NCBI RefSeq assembly: GCF_001308195.1
Contig: NZ_JXDF01000025.1
Location: forward strand, 1-62,970
Direction: 5' to 3'
Source: Apilactobacillus kunkeei
GTDB taxonomy: Bacteria > Bacillota > Bacilli > Lactobacillales > Lactobacillaceae
DNA: 62,970 nt
The notes beneath the pieces are model-generated. The model did not search any database. It worked only from the letters and a program-made list of their open reading frames with translations, and was not told the DNA's origin. Shown here in pieces: positions 10,156-62,852 of this stretch (within the stretch, counting starts at the first letter, position 1; each line of letters starts with the position of its first letter). The translations under genes were made by a program, and so were the position numbers.

Positions 10156-10287
10156 ATTACCAATGTGTTACATAGTTTCGATTGTTAAGGTTACTTGTTT
10201 TATAGTTTTATGAAATGACCCCTTGATTCAGGCTTTTGATACATTAAGATTTTATAACGCACGATATGTGCAAGGAGGTTTCATATT

Positions 10288-10485
10288 ATGAAACAAGGTA
10301 CTGTTAAATGGTTCAACGCTGATAAAGGTTACGGTTTTATCACTACTGAAGACGGTGACGTATTCGTTCACTTCTCAGCTATCAACAAAGAAGGTTTCAA
10401 GACTCTAGAAGAAGGCGAAAAGGTTACATTGGACGTTGAAGACGGCGACCGTGGACCACAAGCTGCTAACGTTACTCCTGCATAA
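10288..10485 (+). CDS. csp: Cold shock protein, CspA family
   Basis: Single-stranded nucleic acid binding protein (RNA chaperone) of 65 residues. RNP1 (KGYGFIT) and RNP2 (VFVHFS) are intact, with the usual KWFNADKG start and the GPQAANV end. AAGGAGG precedes the ATG. The long leader from a near-consensus promoter suggests post-transcriptional control by mRNA structure, as for other csp genes; that part is inference. Confidence 0.97.
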
Positions 10486-10525
10486 GGATAACCTCTTAGT
10501 TAACTTTTAGTTTAAAAAGAGATCA

Positions 10526-10558
10526 AAAACACCCGAGATTTTCTCGGGTGTTTTTTTA
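10526..10558 (+). terminator. Terminator of csp
   Basis: ACACCCGAGA and TCTCGGGTGT form a GC-rich stem followed by T7. Confidence 0.93.
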
Positions 10559-16638: not shown

Positions 16639-18030
16639 TTAAGATTTGTTTGATTGGCTATGGTTAATTCCATAACCGAAATAAATACATAATCCGCCAG
16701 CAAACCAAATAATTGCTAAAATCCATGTATCAAGTGGCAATTGAATTAATAAATAAATACATGCTACCGCTGATACAATTGGTAAGACTGGATATAATGG
16801 AACTTTGAATCCATCATTTTTTATATCTTTACGTTTTCTTAGATATAATATTCCAATTGACATGAACGTAAAGGCAATCAAAGTCCCAATATTAACTAAA
16901 CTAGCTAGTTTATCTAGTGAAAAGATCCCACCCATCACTGCTATCACAATCGTTACGAAGATAACACTGTGGACTGGAACATTTTTCTTTGTGTCTATTT
17001 TACTCAATTTTTTAGGTAAAAGTCCATCACGACCAATGGAATAAATCAGACGTGAACTACTAAATACCATGTTTACCATCATAGTAAACATACCTGCTAA
17101 CGCACCCAATGAAATTAAAATTCCAAGTTTGTCCAAGTGAATCATTTGTAGTGCAAATGTTACTGGATCCGAAACGTTTAATTTTGAATAAGGTACAATT
17201 CCTGTAAGAATAATTGAGACTAATATGTACAAGATTGTACAAATGATTAATGTACCAATAATACCGATTGGCATTGTCTTTTTAGGGTTCTTTACTTCAC
17301 CTGCTGAGGCTGCAATAACATCAAAACCTAAGTAAGCAAAGAACACTAAGGAAGCCCCCTTGAAAACCCCACTAACACCAAATGGCATAAATGGATTCCA
17401 ATTAGTTGGCTTAACAAAAAATGCCCCGGCAACTACAAAGACAATAATGATTGCAATTTTGACTATCACCATTATGTCATTTAAACGTGTGGATGATTTA
17501 ACACCCCTGGTTAAGATCCATGAAATCAATAACACTATTAGAATCGCTATCAAATTAACATATGTGCCGTGATTCGGATCATAGTTAGCTGATAGTGCCT
17601 TTGGCATGTGGAGTCCGAAGTTAGCCAGTAATGATTGCAAATAAGCTGACCAGCTTGATGCAACAGTTGCTACTGAAAGCATGTATTCAAGAATCAAACC
17701 CCATCCGATAATCCATCCAGTAATTTCTCCGAAGATAACGTTACCGAATGTGTATGCACTTCCTGCAACCGGTAATGCTGATGAAAATTCAGCATAACAC
17801 ATTGCACAAAGTGAACATACGATTGTCGCAATTACGAATGAGAGGATAATTCCGGGCCCCGCAGTTGTTGCTGCAACTGTTCCTGGTATTACGAAAATTC
17901 CAGCACCAATAACAGCACCGATTCCCATCATGATTAAATCTTTAGTGTCGATAGTTCTTTGTAAATTTTGATCCCTATCGATGAACTTAGCCAATGATGT
18001 CTTACGATTCACCTTAGACAGAATATTCAT
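16639..18030 (-). CDS. APC-family amino acid permease (YfnA/CAT-like)
   Basis: Secondary amino acid transporter of 463 residues with 12-14 helices. The conserved helix 1 motif MGIGAVIGAGIFVIPG and the helix 6-loop FFAYLGFDVIAASAGEVKNP are present, typical of the cationic amino acid transporter/YfnA group. The start is ATG 18028-18030 after AAGGGGGA. Transcription comes from about 18.29 kb through a leader of about 260 nt with a short ORF and two terminator hairpins, so expression is probably attenuated according to translation of the leader. The substrate is not established. Confidence 0.88.
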   Translation of the reverse strand: MNILSKVNRKTSLAKFIDRDQNLQRTIDTKDLIMMGIGAVIGAGIFVIPGTVAATTAGPGIILSFVIATIVCSLCAMCYAEFSSALPVAGSAYTFGNVIFGEITGWIIGWGLILEYMLSVATVASSWSAYLQSLLANFGLHMPKALSANYDPNHGTYVNLIAILIVLLISWILTRGVKSSTRLNDIMVIVKIAIIIVFVVAGAFFVKPTNWNPFMPFGVSGVFKGASLVFFAYLGFDVIAASAGEVKNPKKTMPIGIIGTLIICTILYILVSIILTGIVPYSKLNVSDPVTFALQMIHLDKLGILISLGALAGMFTMMVNMVFSSSRLIYSIGRDGLLPKKLSKIDTKKNVPVHSVIFVTIVIAVMGGIFSLDKLASLVNIGTLIAFTFMSIGILYLRKRKDIKNDGFKVPLYPVLPIVSAVACIYLLIQLPLDTWILAIIWFAGGLCIYFGYGINHSQSNKS

Positions 18031-18055: not shown

Positions 18056-18140
18056 AATAAAAACCGCACTAGTTTCCTAACTAGTGCGGTAAAAAAGCAC
18101 TAGAAAGAATAACTGTTTACCAGCCATTTTTCTAGTGCTT
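18056..18140 (-). promoter_or_regulatory. Tandem terminator hairpins (attenuator) before the APC permease
   Basis: Hairpin A (18095-18140) pairs AAGCACTAGAAA with TTTCTAGTGCTT and is followed by T6. Hairpin B (18063-18090) pairs ACCGCACTAGTT with AACTAGTGCGGT and is followed by T5. The arms share the core GCACTAG/CTAGTGC, so the 3' arm of A can also pair with the 5' arm of B. A second small ORF (18100-18153, starts MKTSEALEKW) runs through hairpin A. TAAACAGTT in the loop of A (18111-18119) can pair with AGCTGTTTA at 18183-18191, which overlaps the stop of the first leader ORF. Confidence 0.65.
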
Positions 18141-18189
18141 CCGAAGTTTTCATAGCGAAATAATCTCTTCTACGTACTATACTAAACAG

Positions 18190-18255
18190 CTAGTTCAGAT
18201 TAAAGAAGAAATTATTATTATCTTGTTTTATTGTCAGAATACAACAAGTAGCCAT
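18190..18255 (-). CDS. Leader peptide of 21 residues before the APC permease
   Basis: ATG at 18253-18255 has a strong ribosome site (TTGGAGG, 7 nt away) and lies about 35 nt after the predicted transcription start. The peptide starts MATCCILTIK and continues QDNNNFFFNLN before TAG. It thus has tandem Cys codons (4-5), three Asn codons (13-15) and three Phe codons (16-18). A ribosome halted on Phe codons would leave the stop-overlapping segment free to pair with hairpin A, while one at the stop would cover it. This is the pattern of a leader-peptide attenuator. Which amino acid is sensed is unknown. Confidence 0.55.
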   Translation of the reverse strand: MATCCILTIKQDNNNFFFNLN

Positions 18256-18296
18256 GATTGAACCTCCAATTTTCATTCGTTCATTTATTTGTAATA

Positions 18297-18325
18297 ATCT
18301 TACCGAAAATGTATGAAGAATGCAA
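18297..18325 (-). promoter_or_regulatory. Predicted promoter of the leader-APC permease transcript
   Basis: On the minus strand TTGCAT (18320-18325) and TAAGAT (18297-18302) are 17 bp apart. It sits directly behind the stop of the YczE-like gene, with no terminator between. Confidence 0.6.
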
Positions 18326-18331
18326 GTTTTT

Positions 18332-19255
18332 TTATTTATTATTAGCTTTTCTTTCCTTTAATTCGGCGTTTAATGATTCCAAACGTTTATTAAGAATCAA
18401 TTGGACTTGTTGATTTTTTCTCATATTATCGTTAGTCTTCTTAATTAATTCTTCAATCTCAGTATTAGTGTAACCAGACATCTGTTTTTGCATAATATAA
18501 GTATCTTGGTAAGCACTGCTTACGATATCGTAACCACGTTTTCCCAAACTAACTAATCCACCAGCTGCATCATGTAGACTAGGTCTTTGACTAAAGTGAT
18601 CAATATGAGTCATTAGTTCACGACTAACAGTGTTGTTCCAGAAGCTAATCAATGAACCAGCAAAGAATGCTGTAAAGATGGTCATGATTCCAAATGGTCC
18701 TGAAACAATAATGGCAACAAGCATAAAGATAATATCTTGAGCACTTCTCACTTTTCTGTACTCAATATGTGTTTTTTCAGAAATGATTGGTGCCAGTGCA
18801 TCATAAGGAGATACACCTAATTTAGTTGCCATATAGATTGAAGTACCTAATGTAAAAACTAAAATACCAACAATTGCATCGAAAACCATCATAGGAATGC
18901 TAATTTTACCAGGAAAAATCATCGAGTAAAAAGTACTGAAATATTCAATTTCATATCCTACTAATACCATGTTAAAAATGGTTCCTAATCCGATTTGTTT
19001 TCGATCAAAAATTAAAACAATAACGAATAATGCTAAGTTAGCAAATAATTGAAATGACCCCAATGAAGTCCCCAATTTATTTGCCATCCCTGCATTCATT
19101 GCGGTGAATGGGTCAATACCGACATGTCCTGAGCGCATAAAGGCGGCACCTAAAGCAATTAAGGTAACCCCTATTAATGACATAATCGCACGTAAAAAGA
19201 AGTCTAGCGGCTTATTAATCACGTTTTTTGAGTTATCGTATGAAATGTTTTCCAT
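18332..19255 (-). CDS. YczE/YitT-like membrane protein with charged C-terminal tail
   Basis: Membrane protein of 307 residues. Five to six helices occupy residues 20-215, with two YczE-type repeats (GHVGIDPFTAMNAGMANKLG and LGVSPYDALAPIISEKT). The last 80 residues are charged and helical (IEELIKKTNDNMRKNQQ), probably a cytosolic coiled coil. It resembles the shorter protein at 12.0-12.7 kb in the repeat motif. The function is unknown; a transporter-like role is inferred from topology. Confidence 0.8.
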   Translation of the reverse strand: MENISYDNSKNVINKPLDFFLRAIMSLIGVTLIALGAAFMRSGHVGIDPFTAMNAGMANKLGTSLGSFQLFANLALFVIVLIFDRKQIGLGTIFNMVLVGYEIEYFSTFYSMIFPGKISIPMMVFDAIVGILVFTLGTSIYMATKLGVSPYDALAPIISEKTHIEYRKVRSAQDIIFMLVAIIVSGPFGIMTIFTAFFAGSLISFWNNTVSRELMTHIDHFSQRPSLHDAAGGLVSLGKRGYDIVSSAYQDTYIMQKQMSGYTNTEIEELIKKTNDNMRKNQQVQLILNKRLESLNAELKERKANNK

Positions 19256-57860: not shown

Positions 57861-57867
57861 ATTAGTT

Positions 57868-58095
57868 GTTAAGAAAAGACATGTCTATTTGATGGTGCTT
57901 TCCAGAGAGGATTACATTTTTCTGTAAGTAATCTATCGCATTCAAATAGTTACCACTTTTCTCTTCTATTAAATCGATATTATTTTTAATGACTAATATG
58001 AGGGCATTATGGACCTAACCGTAGTGCTAAAGATGGGTGGAACCACGTTAATACTAACGTCCCTGACACATAAGTGTCAGAGGCGTTTTTTGTTT
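57868..58095 (+). promoter_or_regulatory. T-box riboswitch, predicted threonine specifier
   Basis: The antiterminator T-box GGGTGGAACCACG and the competing terminator (ACGTCCCTGACAC with GTGTCAGAGGCGT, then T6) are clear. UGGA (58038-58041) fits a tRNA with discriminator U73. Stem I: AAGAAAAG (57871-57878) with CTTTTCTCTT (57956-57965), then CTATTTGA (57885-57892) with TCAAATAG (57942-57949). The 3' strand of the loop between them is TTACCA, giving ACC (Thr, 57952-57954) followed by A. A further stem GCATTATGG/CCGTAGTGC lies at 58003-58027. Confidence 0.88.
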
Positions 58096-58129: not shown

Positions 58130-59500
58130 TTGTCAGAAAATAATGATAAGTTAGAAAGAAAGCTTAGCGCCCGTCATATGAAAATGATTGCGCTAGGTGG
58201 AACTATCGGGGTTGGCCTATTCATGGGTGCCAAGTCCACAATCGGTTGGACTGGTCCATCCGTGTTACTAGACTACGCAATCGCAGGATTATTCCTATAC
58301 CTAATCATGCGTGCGCTAGGTGAAATGTTATATGTACATCCAGTTACTGGATCATTCTCACAATTTGCATCAGAATACCTACACCCCGTTTTCGGTTACT
58401 TAACCGCATGGAGTAATGTCTTCCAATACATCGTTGTTGGAATCTCAGAAGTAATTGCGATTGGTACATACATGCAATTCTGGTGGCCTCATTTACCAAC
58501 CTGGTTACCAGGAATCATCGCCATTGTCTTCCTATGTATTGCCAACTTAGTATCAGTAAGTGCCTTTGGTGAACTAGAATACTGGTTCGCCCTAGTCAAA
58601 GTCGTTACCATCATTGCCATGATCATCATTGGTTTGGTCATCATTGTCTTTGGTTTTAATGGTATTCACCCTACTGGTATATCAAACATTTGGAGTCATG
58701 GTTTCTTCGCAAACGGTTTTAAAGGATTCTTCTTCGCCCTAGCAATTGTAATTGCCTCATACCAAGGAATCGAATTAATTGGTGTGACTGCCGGTGAAGC
58801 TGAAAATCCTAAGCAAACACTAGTGAAGGCCATTCAAGATACCATTGGTCGTATCCTAATCTTCTACATCGGTGCCATTTTCGTTATCCTAAGTATTTAC
58901 CCTTGGGACAAGATTAGCCAAATCGGTTCACCTTTCGTAGAAACATTCTCACAAGTTGGTATCACCGCGGCTGCTTCAATCATTAACTTCGTTGTGGTAA
59001 CCGCTGCACTATCAGGATCTAACTCAGGAATTTACAGTGCTAGTCGTATGGAATTCTTACTATCTGAAGAAGGTCAACTTCCAAAGGTATTCAAGAAGTT
59101 AAACCGTCATGGTGTCCCATATGTCTCAGTAATTAGTATTTCAGCAGGGATTCTAATTGGACTATTCTTAAACGTTTTACTACCAATCTTCTTCCCATCA
59201 GCAAACCAAATCTTCGTGTACGTCTACAGTTCATCTGTACTACCAGGTATGGTGCCATGGGTTGTTATCTTGGTATCTCAAATTCGTTTCAGAAAGCAAC
59301 ATCCAGAAGAATTAGTGAACCATCCATTCAAGATGCCACTATCACCTATCAGTAATTACATTACGCTAATCTTCTTAGCAATTACCTTGGTGTTCATGTT
59401 CATTAACCCTTCTACTAGAATTCCTTTGATTATAGGAATCTTCTTCCTATTAATCATGACAATTCTATACTTCGTAAAATTCAATCAAAACAACAAATAG
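58130..59500 (+). CDS. AAT-family amino acid permease, probably for threonine
   Basis: Twelve-helix APC/AAT-type carrier of 456 residues. MIALGGTIGVGLFMGAKSTI is helix 1, YQGIELIGVTAGEAENP the helix 6 region, and SGSNSGIYSASRM follows. The start is TTG 58130-58132 with AAGGTGG 5 nt upstream, matching the start of the paralog 1.7 kb downstream; a GTG at 58121 lies in the ribosome site. Threonine as substrate is inferred from the predicted ACC specifier and U73-type T-box, and agrees with the Thr permease YbxG being in this family. Confidence 0.88.
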   Translation: MSENNDKLERKLSARHMKMIALGGTIGVGLFMGAKSTIGWTGPSVLLDYAIAGLFLYLIMRALGEMLYVHPVTGSFSQFASEYLHPVFGYLTAWSNVFQYIVVGISEVIAIGTYMQFWWPHLPTWLPGIIAIVFLCIANLVSVSAFGELEYWFALVKVVTIIAMIIIGLVIIVFGFNGIHPTGISNIWSHGFFANGFKGFFFALAIVIASYQGIELIGVTAGEAENPKQTLVKAIQDTIGRILIFYIGAIFVILSIYPWDKISQIGSPFVETFSQVGITAAASIINFVVVTAALSGSNSGIYSASRMEFLLSEEGQLPKVFKKLNRHGVPYVSVISISAGILIGLFLNVLLPIFFPSANQIFVYVYSSSVLPGMVPWVVILVSQIRFRKQHPEELVNHPFKMPLSPISNYITLIFLAITLVFMFINPSTRIPLIIGIFFLLIMTILYFVKFNQNNK

Positions 59501-59814
59501 GATGTGCGACGTTTGTTGAATAAAATTCATCAATTGTTAAATTCCTTGACATTAATTTTAATATGTAATAACATTTCTTAAATAATAAACATTAGAATTA
59601 TGTAAGTAAAAAATCTTACTGGGGAATTTTTAACGATTGTCAGCAAGATCGTCGTGAAGTCAAACCCATGCAATATGCCAGCAATTTTAGCGATTATTTA
59701 AAGATTATTTAAATATATTGTATTGGTTATGCATTTTTATAAAAACCCTAGTACAATAGACAATGTAGTACTAGGTTTTTTATTACATAATTTCTTACAG
59801 GATGGTGAAATATA
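59501..59814 (+). promoter_or_regulatory. Structured leader with terminator before the second AAT permease
   Basis: No gene is visible. TTGACA (59546-59551) with TAACAT 17 bp on is a possible promoter. Hairpins GTAAG/CTTAC (59602-59619) and ACGAT/ATCGT (59633-59652) and a possible CTGG/CCAG closing pair precede an intrinsic terminator (CCTAGTAC/GTACTAGG, 59741-59781) only 34 nt before the start codon. No T-box consensus is present. A terminator in this place suggests transcription attenuation by an unidentified signal. Confidence 0.55.
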
Positions 59815-61191
59815 TTGGCAGAAGAAAAGCAAGAAAAGAAACTAGAACGTAAATTAAGTTCTAGACAGATGCAAATGATCGCCCTTGGGGGAACAATCGG
59901 GGTTGGTCTATTTATGGGTGCCAAGTCCACAATTGAATGGACTGGTCCTTCTGTATTGCTAGCATATGCAATTGCTGGTGTGTTCTTATATCTAATTATG
60001 AGAGCTTTAGGTGAAATGTTATACGATAACCCAATTAGTGGTTCATTCTCACATTTCGCTTCTGAATACATGCACCCCGTGTTCGGTTACTTGACCGCTT
60101 GGTCTAACATCTTCCAATGGGTTGTTGTTGGTATTTCAGAAATGATTGCTATTGGTACTTACATGCAATTCTGGTGGCCATCAATTCCATCTTGGGTACC
60201 TGGTATTATCGCGGTAGTATTCTTATGTATTGCCAACTTAATCTCAGTTAGTGCCTTTGGTGAATTGGAATACTGGTTCGCTTTAATTAAGGTTGTTACT
60301 ATTATCGCAATGATCATTGTCGGTTTAGTAATCATTGTTTTAGGTTTCAATGGTGTTGGCCCTACTGGTATTTCTAACCTATGGTCACATGGATTCTTTA
60401 CTGGTGGTTTCAAAGGATTCTTCTTCGCACTATCAATCGTATTCGCTTCTTACCAAGGAATCGAATTAATTGGTGTTACTGCTGGTGAAGCTGAAAACCC
60501 TAAGAAGACTTTAGTTAAGGCTATCCAAGACACTATTGGTCGTATCTTAATCTTCTACATTGGATCAATCTTCGTAATGCTATCAATCTACCCATGGGAT
60601 AAGATTGCAAACATTGGTTCACCTTTCGTAGAAACATTCTCACAAGTAGGTATTACTGCTGCAGCTTCAATCATTAACTTTGTTGTTTTAACAGCCGCTC
60701 TATCAGGTTCTAACTCAGCAATTTACAGTTCAAGCCGTATGTCATACCTATTAGCACAACAAGGTCAATTACCTGACAGATACAACAAGATTAACAAGCA
60801 TGGTGTTCCATACATCTCTGTTATCTCAATTGCTACTGGTATTTTATTGGGAGTTATTCTAAACGTAGTTCTTCCTCTATTCTACAAGGGAGCAAACCAA
60901 GTATTCGTATACGTATACAGTTCATCTGTTCTTCCAGGTATGGTTCCATGGTTCGTAATTATCATGTCAGAACTTAAGTTTAGAAAGCAACATCCTGAAA
61001 AACTAGTTGGTCATCCATTCAAGATGCCACTAGCACCTTTCTCAAACTATCTAACATTACTAGTACTATTCGTTACTTTAGTATTTATGTTCTTCAATGA
61101 TGATACAAGAATTCCATTGATTGTAGGAATCGTCTTCTTAGCATTAATGACAATCCTATACTTTGTTAGATTTAATAAGAAAGCAAAATAA
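59815..61191 (+). CDS. AAT-family amino acid permease (paralog of the upstream gene)
   Basis: 458 residues, 12 helices, and nearly the same protein as the upstream permease along its full length (for example LERKLSSRQMQMIALGG, YQGIELIGVTAGEAENP). The N-terminus and the end of helix 10-12 differ most. The start is TTG 59815-59817 with GGTG 7 nt upstream. The leader differs entirely from the T-box leader of its sister, so the duplicates probably answer to different signals or amino acids. Confidence 0.9.
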   Translation: MAEEKQEKKLERKLSSRQMQMIALGGTIGVGLFMGAKSTIEWTGPSVLLAYAIAGVFLYLIMRALGEMLYDNPISGSFSHFASEYMHPVFGYLTAWSNIFQWVVVGISEMIAIGTYMQFWWPSIPSWVPGIIAVVFLCIANLISVSAFGELEYWFALIKVVTIIAMIIVGLVIIVLGFNGVGPTGISNLWSHGFFTGGFKGFFFALSIVFASYQGIELIGVTAGEAENPKKTLVKAIQDTIGRILIFYIGSIFVMLSIYPWDKIANIGSPFVETFSQVGITAAASIINFVVLTAALSGSNSAIYSSSRMSYLLAQQGQLPDRYNKINKHGVPYISVISIATGILLGVILNVVLPLFYKGANQVFVYVYSSSVLPGMVPWFVIIMSELKFRKQHPEKLVGHPFKMPLAPFSNYLTLLVLFVTLVFMFFNDDTRIPLIVGIVFLALMTILYFVRFNKKAK

Positions 61192-61208
61192 TTCATATTA
61201 AAACTAAT

Positions 61209-61243
61209 TTAGCCACCCTTTTGCTATTCAAGGGTGGCTATTT
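61209..61243 (+). terminator. Terminator of the second AAT permease
   Basis: TAGCCACCCTT pairs perfectly with AAGGGTGGCTA. Confidence 0.9.
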
Positions 61244-61291
61244 TCATGTTAAAATATTAATTACGTTTGTTTATTATTTACAAACACCATT

Positions 61292-61319
61292 TGACAAATT
61301 AACAAAAACGATTAAAATA
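61292..61319 (+). promoter_or_regulatory. Predicted promoter of the last permease
   Basis: TTGACA followed after 16 bp by TAAAAT, about 75 nt before the start codon. Confidence 0.6.
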
Positions 61320-61391
61320 TAATCAATTTCTAATCATTTTTTAATAAACGAGATGCCATCTTGTTTATACATACGAAAAGAGGTAATTTTT

Positions 61392-62852
61392 ATGGCGAAT
61401 CTATTCAAACGAATGAATCGAAAAGAAGACCCTAGTGTCTATGAGCAAAAGGATTCTAACTTGGTCAGATCATTGACTACAAAGGATTTCCTTGCTTTAG
61501 GAGTTGGAACAATTGTTTCTACTGCTATCTTCACCCTTCCTGGTATCGTGGCTGCAAACAATGCAGGTCCTGCGGTAACTATTTCTTTCTTACTTGCAGC
61601 GATTGTTGCTGGGTTGGTTGCTTTATCTTACGCAGAAATGGCTTCAGCCATGCCGTTTGCCGGTTCTGCATATTCATGGATTAACGTTGTTTTTGGAGAA
61701 TTCTGGGGTTGGGTTGCCGGATGGGCACTTCTAGCAGAATACTTCATCGCTGTTTCCTTTGTTGCAGCTGGATTATCGGCTAACTTCCGAGGTCTAATTG
61801 CACCACTTGGAATTAACTTCCCTACATACTTAGCTAACCCTGTCAGTGCAAAAGGCGGATTAGTTGATATTTGTACCGTTGTTGTAATTTTGATCGTAAT
61901 GTTCTTAATTACACGTGGTGACAAGCAAACTTCTCGTGTTGAAAATGTATTAGTAATTTTAAAGGTAGCTGCCGTATTAGTATTTATCGTTGTCGGTGCT
62001 ACTGCCATCCACTTCGCAAACTACGTTCCATTTATTCCTGCTCACCATGTTAATGCCGATGGTACTAACTTTGGTGGCTTCAGTGGAATCTACGCTGGTG
62101 TTTCAGTAATTTTCCTATCATACATTGGTTTTGATTCAATTGCTGCAAACTCAGCAGAAGCAAAGAACCCTCAAAAGACAATGCCTAGAGGTATCATTGG
62201 TTCCCTAGTAATTGCTGTTACACTATTCGTTGCCGTATCACTAGTCCTAGTTGGTATGTTCAAGTACACTAACTACGCTGGTAACGCAGAACCAGTTGGT
62301 TGGGCCCTACGTCAAGCTGGTCACCCAATCGTTGCTTCAGTTGTTCAAATTATTGCCGTTGTAGGTATGTTCACTGCCCTAATCGGTATGATGATGGCAG
62401 GTTCACGTCTACTATACTCATTCGGTAGAGATGGAATGCTACCTAAATTCCTAGGTAAGGTTAACAAGAAGAGTCACCTTCCACTAAATGCAATCATTAC
62501 TATGACTGTTATCTCAGTTGTTATTGGTGCCTTCCTAACATTTACATTCCTATCACAACTAATTTCAGCTGGTACATTGATCGCTTTCATGTTCGTTTCA
62601 ATTGGTATTTACCCACTTAGAAAACGTGAAGGAAAAGACATCAACATGCCTGGCTTCAAAGAACCATTCTTCCCTGTTATGCCTGCTCTAGGTTTCCTAG
62701 CATCACTAGCCGTATTCTGGGGTCTAGACAACGACGCTAAGATTTATGCACTTGTATGGTTCATCATCGGTATGGTTATCTACTTTGTATATGGTATGCA
62801 CCATAACACTAGAAACCAACAAGCCGAAGTTAAATCAAATGATAATGAATAA
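61392..62852 (+). CDS. APC-family amino acid permease (CAT/YfnA-like)
   Basis: 486 residues with 12-14 helices. GVGTIVSTAIFTLPGIVAA is helix 1, with S-T where related carriers have G-A-G. FLSYIGFDSIAANSAEAKNPQKTMP is the helix 6 region and MMMAGSRLLYSFGRDGMLP helix 8-9. It is related to the APC permease at 16.6-18.0 kb. The start ATG 61392-61394 follows AGAGG; the longer open frame begins 13 codons earlier without a ribosome site. Its terminator is cut by the terminal repeat. Confidence 0.9.
   Translation: MANLFKRMNRKEDPSVYEQKDSNLVRSLTTKDFLALGVGTIVSTAIFTLPGIVAANNAGPAVTISFLLAAIVAGLVALSYAEMASAMPFAGSAYSWINVVFGEFWGWVAGWALLAEYFIAVSFVAAGLSANFRGLIAPLGINFPTYLANPVSAKGGLVDICTVVVILIVMFLITRGDKQTSRVENVLVILKVAAVLVFIVVGATAIHFANYVPFIPAHHVNADGTNFGGFSGIYAGVSVIFLSYIGFDSIAANSAEAKNPQKTMPRGIIGSLVIAVTLFVAVSLVLVGMFKYTNYAGNAEPVGWALRQAGHPIVASVVQIIAVVGMFTALIGMMMAGSRLLYSFGRDGMLPKFLGKVNKKSHLPLNAIITMTVISVVIGAFLTFTFLSQLISAGTLIAFMFVSIGIYPLRKREGKDINMPGFKEPFFPVMPALGFLASLAVFWGLDNDAKIYALVWFIIGMVIYFVYGMHHNTRNQQAEVKSNDNE

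Follow-up and report, generated by a model that had tools for sequence, protein, structure and literature searches.

A predicted phenylalanine-responsive transcription attenuator with his-type strand order upstream of a BcaP-like permease gene in Apilactobacillus kunkeei

Features of the leader upstream of the permease gene

The stretch of DNA analyzed, referred to here as the window, is a 62,970-nt contig of Apilactobacillus kunkeei (NZ_JXDF01000025.1), and all features of the locus lie on its minus strand. The presumed regulated gene (16639-18030) encodes a BcaP-like amino acid permease of the APC family, recognized by a profile match and by its solved relatives. A YczE-like gene on the same strand (18332-19255) ends at 18332, upstream of the leader. 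A promoter-like site, read by eye, follows this gene and consists of TTGCAT (18325-18320), a 17-nt spacer and TAAGAT (18302-18297); it is absent from the list produced by a computational scan of the window. Similar hexamers with similar spacing were seen, also by eye, at the equivalent position in relatives, in keeping with the promoter placed here by the original prediction, which was made from the window sequence alone.

Downstream of this site lie a Shine-Dalgarno (SD) sequence, GGAGG (18263-18267), and a leader ORF of 21 codons, MATCCILTIKQDNNNFFFNLN (18190-18255), both of which had been predicted. The putative regulatory codons, TTC TTC TTT for three consecutive Phe residues (FFF), occupy 18202-18210. 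An SD-preceded ATG ORF containing FFF arose in none of 2000 shuffles of the 450 nt upstream of the window's permease gene. The leader RNA (18285-18050) folds with an energy of -86.2 kcal/mol, compared with -43.9 ± 4.3 kcal/mol in shuffles (z = -9.9), a value reached by none of 200 shuffled sequences.

Folding and pairing tests place strand 1 (18204-18216), which includes part of the Phe codons, opposite 18171-18159, so that 18159-18171 is the 3′ arm of helix 1:2. Strand 2 (18176-18194) starts 2 nt before the leader stop codon and can form an antiterminator, 2:3, with strand 3 (18121-18142), the 5′ arm of hairpin A. Strand 4 (18093-18115), the 3′ arm of hairpin A, has strand 5 as its alternative partner. 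Strands 2, 3 and 4 were delimited by pairing, covariation and a stalled-ribosome model, strand 2 also by its spacing from the Phe codons. Hairpin A (18142-18093; 18091-18142 with its U-run) was found by folding and is absent from the terminator list, whereas hairpin B, formed by strands 5 and 6 (18090-18063; 18059-18090 with its U-run), is an intrinsic terminator found by both the scan and folding. Both hairpins contain a GCACTAG repeat. The OFF pairs 1:2, 3:4 (hairpin A) and 5:6 (hairpin B) are mutually exclusive with the ON pairs 2:3 and 4:5.

Distribution of the leader and covariation of its helices

A DNA search with the window leader located it in all 16 Apilactobacillus genomes (L044-L059), two of which (G012 and G014) pass the threshold by a 55-nt part only, and the ORF with its SD is kept in every one. 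The other matches were the hairpin on the opposite strand and one 29-nt stretch in G010. Alignment with relatives, the check named in the original prediction, revealed a conserved Phe run and SD together with competing helices that covary. In the 16 aligned leaders, 15 of them distinct, the SD, the Phe codons and TAATAATTTCTTCTTTAA are invariant and the N-terminal codons are variable. A second short ORF (18100-18153), which had been proposed as part of the switch, was rejected: it is interrupted by frameshifts and an early stop, has lengths of 6-41, is absent from two of the 16 genomes and lacks an evident SD.

Related leaders of diverged sequence precede orthologues of the permease gene in two further lactobacillus genera, g21 and g42, and a run of FFF to FFFFF is the residue feature common to all three. 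Within the g21 leader clade, an ORF that follows an SD and contains three to five consecutive Phe codons (for example MLINRLSSTSQRFFFFFNQPGYQPVS) is present at 12 of 13 loci. The thirteenth (L091, in G266) has no FFF leader within 1500 nt; there a TnpB-like coding sequence, named by eye, lies directly upstream of the permease gene. No FFF ORF was found at any of the 12 loci of a second g21 permease paralogue, and the FF seen at three of these (L173, L177 and L181) belongs to unrelated ORFs. Secundilactobacillus paracollinoides (L023) carries the leader MLTTQLHQLNRFSFFFNEPGYRPVQLKKRS. Over 136-148 aligned residues, the permease of this species shares 77-88% identity with twelve g21 permeases; on this sequence identity, g21 is probably Secundilactobacillus. 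The permease frame of this strain, JCM 11969, is broken by 18 stops in straight translation, through either assembly error or decay, and the leader ORF is open. Genus g42 has a leader at all six loci (for example MNSMQRVAFSFFFKLPSNRLVD). In several g42 species (L156-L160) additional, repeat-like sequence follows hairpin B and places the leader 293-522 nt upstream of the permease gene.

A scan of 159 upstream regions, each of 450 nt and with partly redundant ids, gave 44 that contain an SD-preceded FFF ORF, all of them from Apilactobacillus, g21 or g42; the known leaders L094 and L156-L158 were missed through the limits of the scan. Such ORFs arose by chance in 0 to 3 of 2000 shuffles of five of these regions. 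Candidate leaders in g49 (MCLLVLNVNSFNRKFFSFC, one of two genomes) and g41 (MTHSLISSKNFNDGAFSLFG, one genome) were too weak to count. In genus g20, all five leaders (L072 and L182-L185) are aromatic, with FRFWFF, FSFWYF or FYFGYF, and their hairpin arrangement differs. Phe and Tyr codons are mixed in these leaders, with Trp also in two, a composition that suggests a broad aromatic signal. In a quickly built tree with 95 permeases, 6 changes account for the leader label, compared with a mean of 30 after shuffling, and even 6 may be too high since two rows scored as leaderless (L156 and L158) do have a leader. One clade (support 97) takes in most leader lineages and also a group of 10 without a leader, and g20 falls outside this clade; both a single origin with losses and several origins are compatible with this picture.

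Covariation was scored on the Apilactobacillus alignment, with shuffles that ignore the relatedness of rows; rows L058 and L059 probably carry an alignment error at hairpin B that would depress the scores of both structures. In the ON structure 95.3% of cells are paired, five pairs are changed on both sides (reached by 2 of 500 shuffles), and the covariation score is 0.190, compared with 0.144 ± 0.009 in shuffles (0 of 500 as high) and at most 0.090 in slid versions. The OFF structure has 94.9% of cells paired and a covariation score of 0.121, also reached by none of 500 shuffles. The number of further pair types showed no excess in either structure, with 265 of 500 shuffles reaching the value for ON and 394 of 500 that for OFF. 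A 9-bp pairing between AGCTGTTTA at the leader stop and TAAACAGTT within hairpin A, put forward in the original prediction, is complete in the window strain (with one G-U pair) but is kept in only 86.7% of cells across the genus, compared with 93.9% for the alternative pairing of ACTAGCTGTTT with AAATGGCTGGT in the 5′ arm of hairpin A (helix 2:3). The 9-bp pairing was thus replaced by 2:3, which it overlaps; it is weaker rather than absent (covariation 0.140, reached by 3 of 500 shuffles). As judged from sequence, the switching partner of strand 2 is strand 3.

Helix 2:3 was matched by at most 15 of 300 one-strand shuffles in 28 of 33 leaders, and by more than 15 in L001, L003, L006, L156 and L160. 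For helix 4:5 the same comparison gave at most 9 of 300 in all 15 Apilactobacillus leaders, at most 15 in two and at most 24 in nine of the 12 g21 leaders, and no improvement over shuffles in any of the six g42 leaders. The relay through 4:5 therefore has firm support in Apilactobacillus alone, moderate support in g21 and none in g42. Among 14 representatives, duplexes between a leader's own strands were more stable than those with partners from other lineages for 2:3 (means of -18.6 and -13.0 kcal/mol), 4:5 (-11.9 and -8.2 kcal/mol) and 1:2 (-12.6 and -9.2 kcal/mol). Partner exchange did not weaken 4:5 in the three g42 representatives, and the pattern failed to hold in single comparisons for L008 (4:5), L089 (1:2) and L059 (2:3 and 1:2, when the strand of one side was exchanged). 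In g21 and Apilactobacillus, 4:5 can extend into hairpin B past the repeated core (TGTCT:GGACA in L094 and TTCT:GGAA in L057).

The U-run 3′ of hairpin A is present in Apilactobacillus except in L007 and L008 (the A. apinorum clade, 2 of 16 genomes) and was found in none of the 12 g21 and none of the six g42 leaders examined. Of the original claim of two terminator hairpins that share GCACTAG/CTAGTGC and swap partners, the repeat is confirmed and the 4:5 pairing supported in Apilactobacillus, but hairpin A lacks the terminator U-run in those two genomes. Where it has the U-run, hairpin A is probably a first terminator; it may be a relay element that acquired a second role, as a terminator, within part of a single genus, this being the presumed direction of change.

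Codon-to-helix spacing and a stalled-ribosome model

The position of strand 2 relative to the Phe codons was examined by searching for the best partner of strand 3 anywhere from the leader start to hairpin A. In 30 of 33 leaders this partner starts 13-20 nt past the first Phe codon, a count that becomes 33 of 33 if a 13-nt lower limit is built into the search. Measured from the last Phe, it starts 5 to 12 nt downstream in 30 of 33 leaders and exactly 8 nt downstream in 14; in the remaining three (L059, L060 and L156) it starts elsewhere or earlier. The leading edge of a ribosome lies 13 nt beyond the A-site codon; stalling was modeled by masking this footprint and computing a partition function for nascent RNA that ends with strand 3.

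In this model, a ribosome with the first Phe codon in its A site gives helix 2:3 of the window leader a probability of 0.97; the value is 0.00 if the ribosome is absent and also 0.00 if it has reached the stop codon. At the stop codon 0.00 was obtained for all 33 leaders, mostly as a consequence of the mask, which there takes away strand 2. Stalling at the first Phe brings 2:3 to at least 0.86 in all 15 Apilactobacillus leaders; when no ribosome is present, 11 of them stay at or below 0.05 and the other four lie at 0.28-0.56. In the 12 g21 and six g42 leaders the probability of 2:3 is 0.61 or more whether or not a ribosome is present; helix 1:2 there loses to 2:3 even without a ribosome, so that the untranslated state would read through. 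When strand 3 is taken, 4:5 reaches at least 0.83 in all 15 Apilactobacillus leaders, compared with 0.00 in all 15 when it is free. The corresponding values are at least 0.81 in ten of 12 g21 leaders (0.04 in L164 and 0.64 in L168) against 0.00-0.48, and 0.10-0.93 against 0.00-0.59 in g42. When the leaders were folded to equilibrium with the stalled ribosome masked, hairpin B persisted in 31 of 33, the exceptions being L060 and L164. The ON state must therefore be kinetic, which is the accepted view for other attenuators.

Scanning the stall position along the window leader with the 13-nt edge gave 0.00 for 2:3 at Cys4/5 and 0.97 at Phe16/17. Over the range of edges assumed, 2:3 is 0.96-0.97 at Asn13-15, 0.81-0.97 at Phe16-17, 0.01-0.81 at Phe18 and about 0 thereafter. 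In seven other leaders scanned the permissive stretch likewise fades at or shortly past the last Phe of the run. It extends back to the first codons in L008, L060, L159 and L166 (about 0.86 or more before the Phe run), so that the run sets only the end of the permissive stretch there, and it partly reaches early codons in L053 and L057. Stalls ahead of the Phe run would cause antitermination in these leaders as well. A stall at any early codon of L008, Cys4 included, gives about 0.9, and Cys4 in L053 gives 0.57.

The original prediction had left the signal as Phe, Asn or Cys. Phe fits best, its run being common to three genera. The value of 0.00 at Cys4/5 holds for the window leader only and, given L008 and L053, the stall scan is not general; Cys is therefore rejected chiefly because relatives have lost the Cys pair.

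Three features of the attenuator class are present: an SD-preceded leader ORF, a run of Phe codons, and mutually exclusive terminator and antiterminator helices. Apilactobacillus also has the feature of a his-type relay, a second alternative helix (4:5) that competes with the terminator 5:6. Conservation, geometry and covariation all support the original proposal that the position of the ribosome on the leader decides termination upstream of the permease gene. Taken together, these data make it very probable that the leader is a ribosome-mediated transcription attenuator of the his type, with six strands, that responds to charged tRNA-Phe ahead of the BcaP-like permease gene. With ample Phe, the ribosome would pass FFF to the leader stop and cover strand 2; hairpin A (3:4) would then form, strand 5 would stay free and terminator B (5:6) would form. 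With Phe in short supply, the ribosome would stall on FFF and strand 2 would emerge to pair with strand 3. Strand 4, thereby released, would pair with strand 5, leaving strand 6 without a partner, and RNA polymerase would read on. The conserved ORF and Phe run, the exclusive covarying helices and the codon-to-helix spacing were shown by computation; from them we infer actual stalling, the termination efficiencies and the kinetics of the relay. Computational support for the switching device is good in Apilactobacillus, and its relay is weaker in the other genera.

Alternative explanations and the supply of phenylalanine

The same hairpins could be plain tandem terminators of the YczE-like gene, with the short ORF incidental, since that gene lies on their strand and ends at 18332, and nothing else terminator-like was listed by the scan before hairpin A is reached. 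The conserved promoter-like site, however, sits between the gene and the hairpins, and plain terminators need neither an invariant SD and Phe run nor covarying 2:3 and 4:5 helices, so that we regard this explanation as very improbable. Control of the permease by a T-box or another riboswitch would be in keeping with the genome, in which 33 T-box (RF00230) matches (E ≤ 0.001) were found, 13 of them above the gathering score, including one before pheS (C17:137836; gene named by TIGR00468). None of the 33 falls at the window leader, though, and no Rfam family reaches its gathering score at the locus, where 11 weak matches (E up to 10) include no T-box; a riboswitch here thus has next to no likelihood. 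The abundance of T-boxes agrees with the earlier remark that a peptide-based attenuator would be unusual where they are common. At the gathering score, a set of 20 loci, most of them leaderless or paralogous, yielded two cspA matches, one Ref68 match and no T-box, and a mixed set of 20 loci yielded no match at all. Elsewhere in the window, a match to the cspA thermoregulator family (91.6 bits) lies at 10186-10557 (plus strand), and three APC-type permease matches at 58133-62819 have a sub-threshold T-box (52 bits) just upstream, at 57867-58067 (plus strand). Three tandem T-box matches (L144-L146; G000:C30:77114-77868, minus strand) precede a gene that by eye resembles argininosuccinate synthase.

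Two further explanations accept the short ORF as functional and read its codons differently. A drug-sensing leader peptide, like those before ribosome-protection genes, has a precedent in drug-responsive uORFs of this type in Firmicutes, hflX being the case given in the part of the source consulted (PMC8632094). The gene downstream here is an amino acid permease rather than a ribosome-protection gene, and the conserved Phe run is spaced from strand 2 as suits starvation stalling; this possibility appears negligible. An attenuator that in Apilactobacillus answers to asparagine, besides or instead of phenylalanine, has rather more in its favor. Two or three Asn codons lie directly 5′ of FFF in all 15 distinct Apilactobacillus rows, and stalling at Asn13-15 of the window leader is as good for the formation of 2:3 (0.96-0.97) as stalling at Phe. 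Since Asn13-15 fall inside the permissive stretch that also holds the Phe codons, an added Asn response in this genus is conceivable. Asn before the Phe run is, however, absent from g21 and most g42 leaders, which keep Phe (one Asn, as NFFF, is found in L156 and L157). Another Asn sensor is indicated by a T-box (L137) before a gene of the A. kunkeei genome that by eye resembles asnS, although the same argument applies to Phe through pheS. On balance a response to asparagine seems unlikely, and the reading based on Phe is followed here.

The permease itself scores best with the NCBIfam model NF053761 (BcaP), at 619.3 bits, below the curated cut-off of 690. Its nearest solved structures are 5oqt and 6f34, it is 99-100% identical to Apilactobacillus kunkeei records, and it resembles branched-chain carriers rather than known Phe carriers. 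BcaP scores of four leader-bearing relatives (562 to 633) overlap with those of four leaderless ones (424 to 632), so that score does not separate the two groups. Import of phenylalanine or aromatic amino acids is what we infer for the BcaP-like permease, as its presumed function. No prephenate dehydratase (PF00800) was found in the 16 Apilactobacillus genomes, by a search that detected it in 14 of 14 known genomes used as a control. Across the family it occurs in 40 of 397 genomes, including all 15 g21 genomes, so that the leader does not track auxotrophy and a general link between leader and Phe auxotrophy was rejected. With a T-box before pheS and a translated leader before the permease gene, Phe supply is probably sensed in two ways, by the former for the synthetase and by the latter for the permease.

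A broader history would be that, in a lineage with a T-box before its Phe-tRNA synthetase gene, a paralogue of a branched-chain-type carrier became an importer of Phe or aromatic amino acids and gained a his-like six-strand relay. The ancestral middle hairpin would have lacked termination power, and a U-run added in most Apilactobacillus would have produced two successive termination checkpoints; the leaders of a further genus would be mixed Phe/Tyr/Trp sensors. We give this scenario about even chances.

The leader suggests a family of Phe-reading leader peptides in a group where T-boxes are usual for amino acid genes, and it predicts a substrate for permeases so far named only after branched-chain carriers. 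For the bee-associated A. kunkeei, where the search for prephenate dehydratase gave no match, the leader would be the switch for obtaining Phe. The g21 paralogue pairs with and without a leader, together with the presence or absence of the hairpin A U-run, make the relay directly testable.

Comparison with known systems

Among the titles and abstract beginnings of the open-access PMC matches listed, no Phe leader peptide before a lactobacillus permease was found. The his operon attenuator of Escherichia coli and Salmonella comprises six strands, A to F. Like the leader described here, it has a run of regulatory codons in a leader peptide and opposes OFF pairs 1:2, 3:4 and 5:6 to ON pairs 2:3 and 4:5. 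It differs in responding to His and controlling biosynthesis genes, whereas the Apilactobacillus leader would respond to Phe and control a permease in Lactobacillaceae; in most Apilactobacillus, unlike in his, the middle hairpin also has a U-run. In E. coli, the pheA and pheST leaders contain a Phe-codon run read by the ribosome, alike in this respect but differing in gene class and phylum.

Closer in phylogeny are several systems described in the portions of the sources consulted. The candidate uORFC-13-1 before aroF of Acholeplasma, whose U-run codes for at least one Phe 5′ of a terminator (PMC8632094), precedes a biosynthesis gene, and the part of its description consulted includes no relay. 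The ilv-leu operon of Staphylococcus aureus has a Leu-rich leader-peptide attenuator (PMC5794164), and His-leader peptides precede two hisS paralogues in bacilli (PMC2965389); according to these excerpts both are, as here, Firmicutes peptides in place of a T-box, for a different amino acid and gene. For histidine genes in Lactobacillales, the excerpts of PMC8632094, PMC2965389, PMC5794164, PMC2494555 and PMC9413887, taken jointly, name the T-box as the device found most often. A Phe T-box precedes an NSS transporter gene in the Bacillus cereus group, and Phe supply is thought to regulate this transporter through antitermination (PMC2494555, in part). That system shares with the Apilactobacillus leader a transporter under Phe control, but has, as far as this excerpt describes it, a carrier of another family and a T-box in place of a translated leader.
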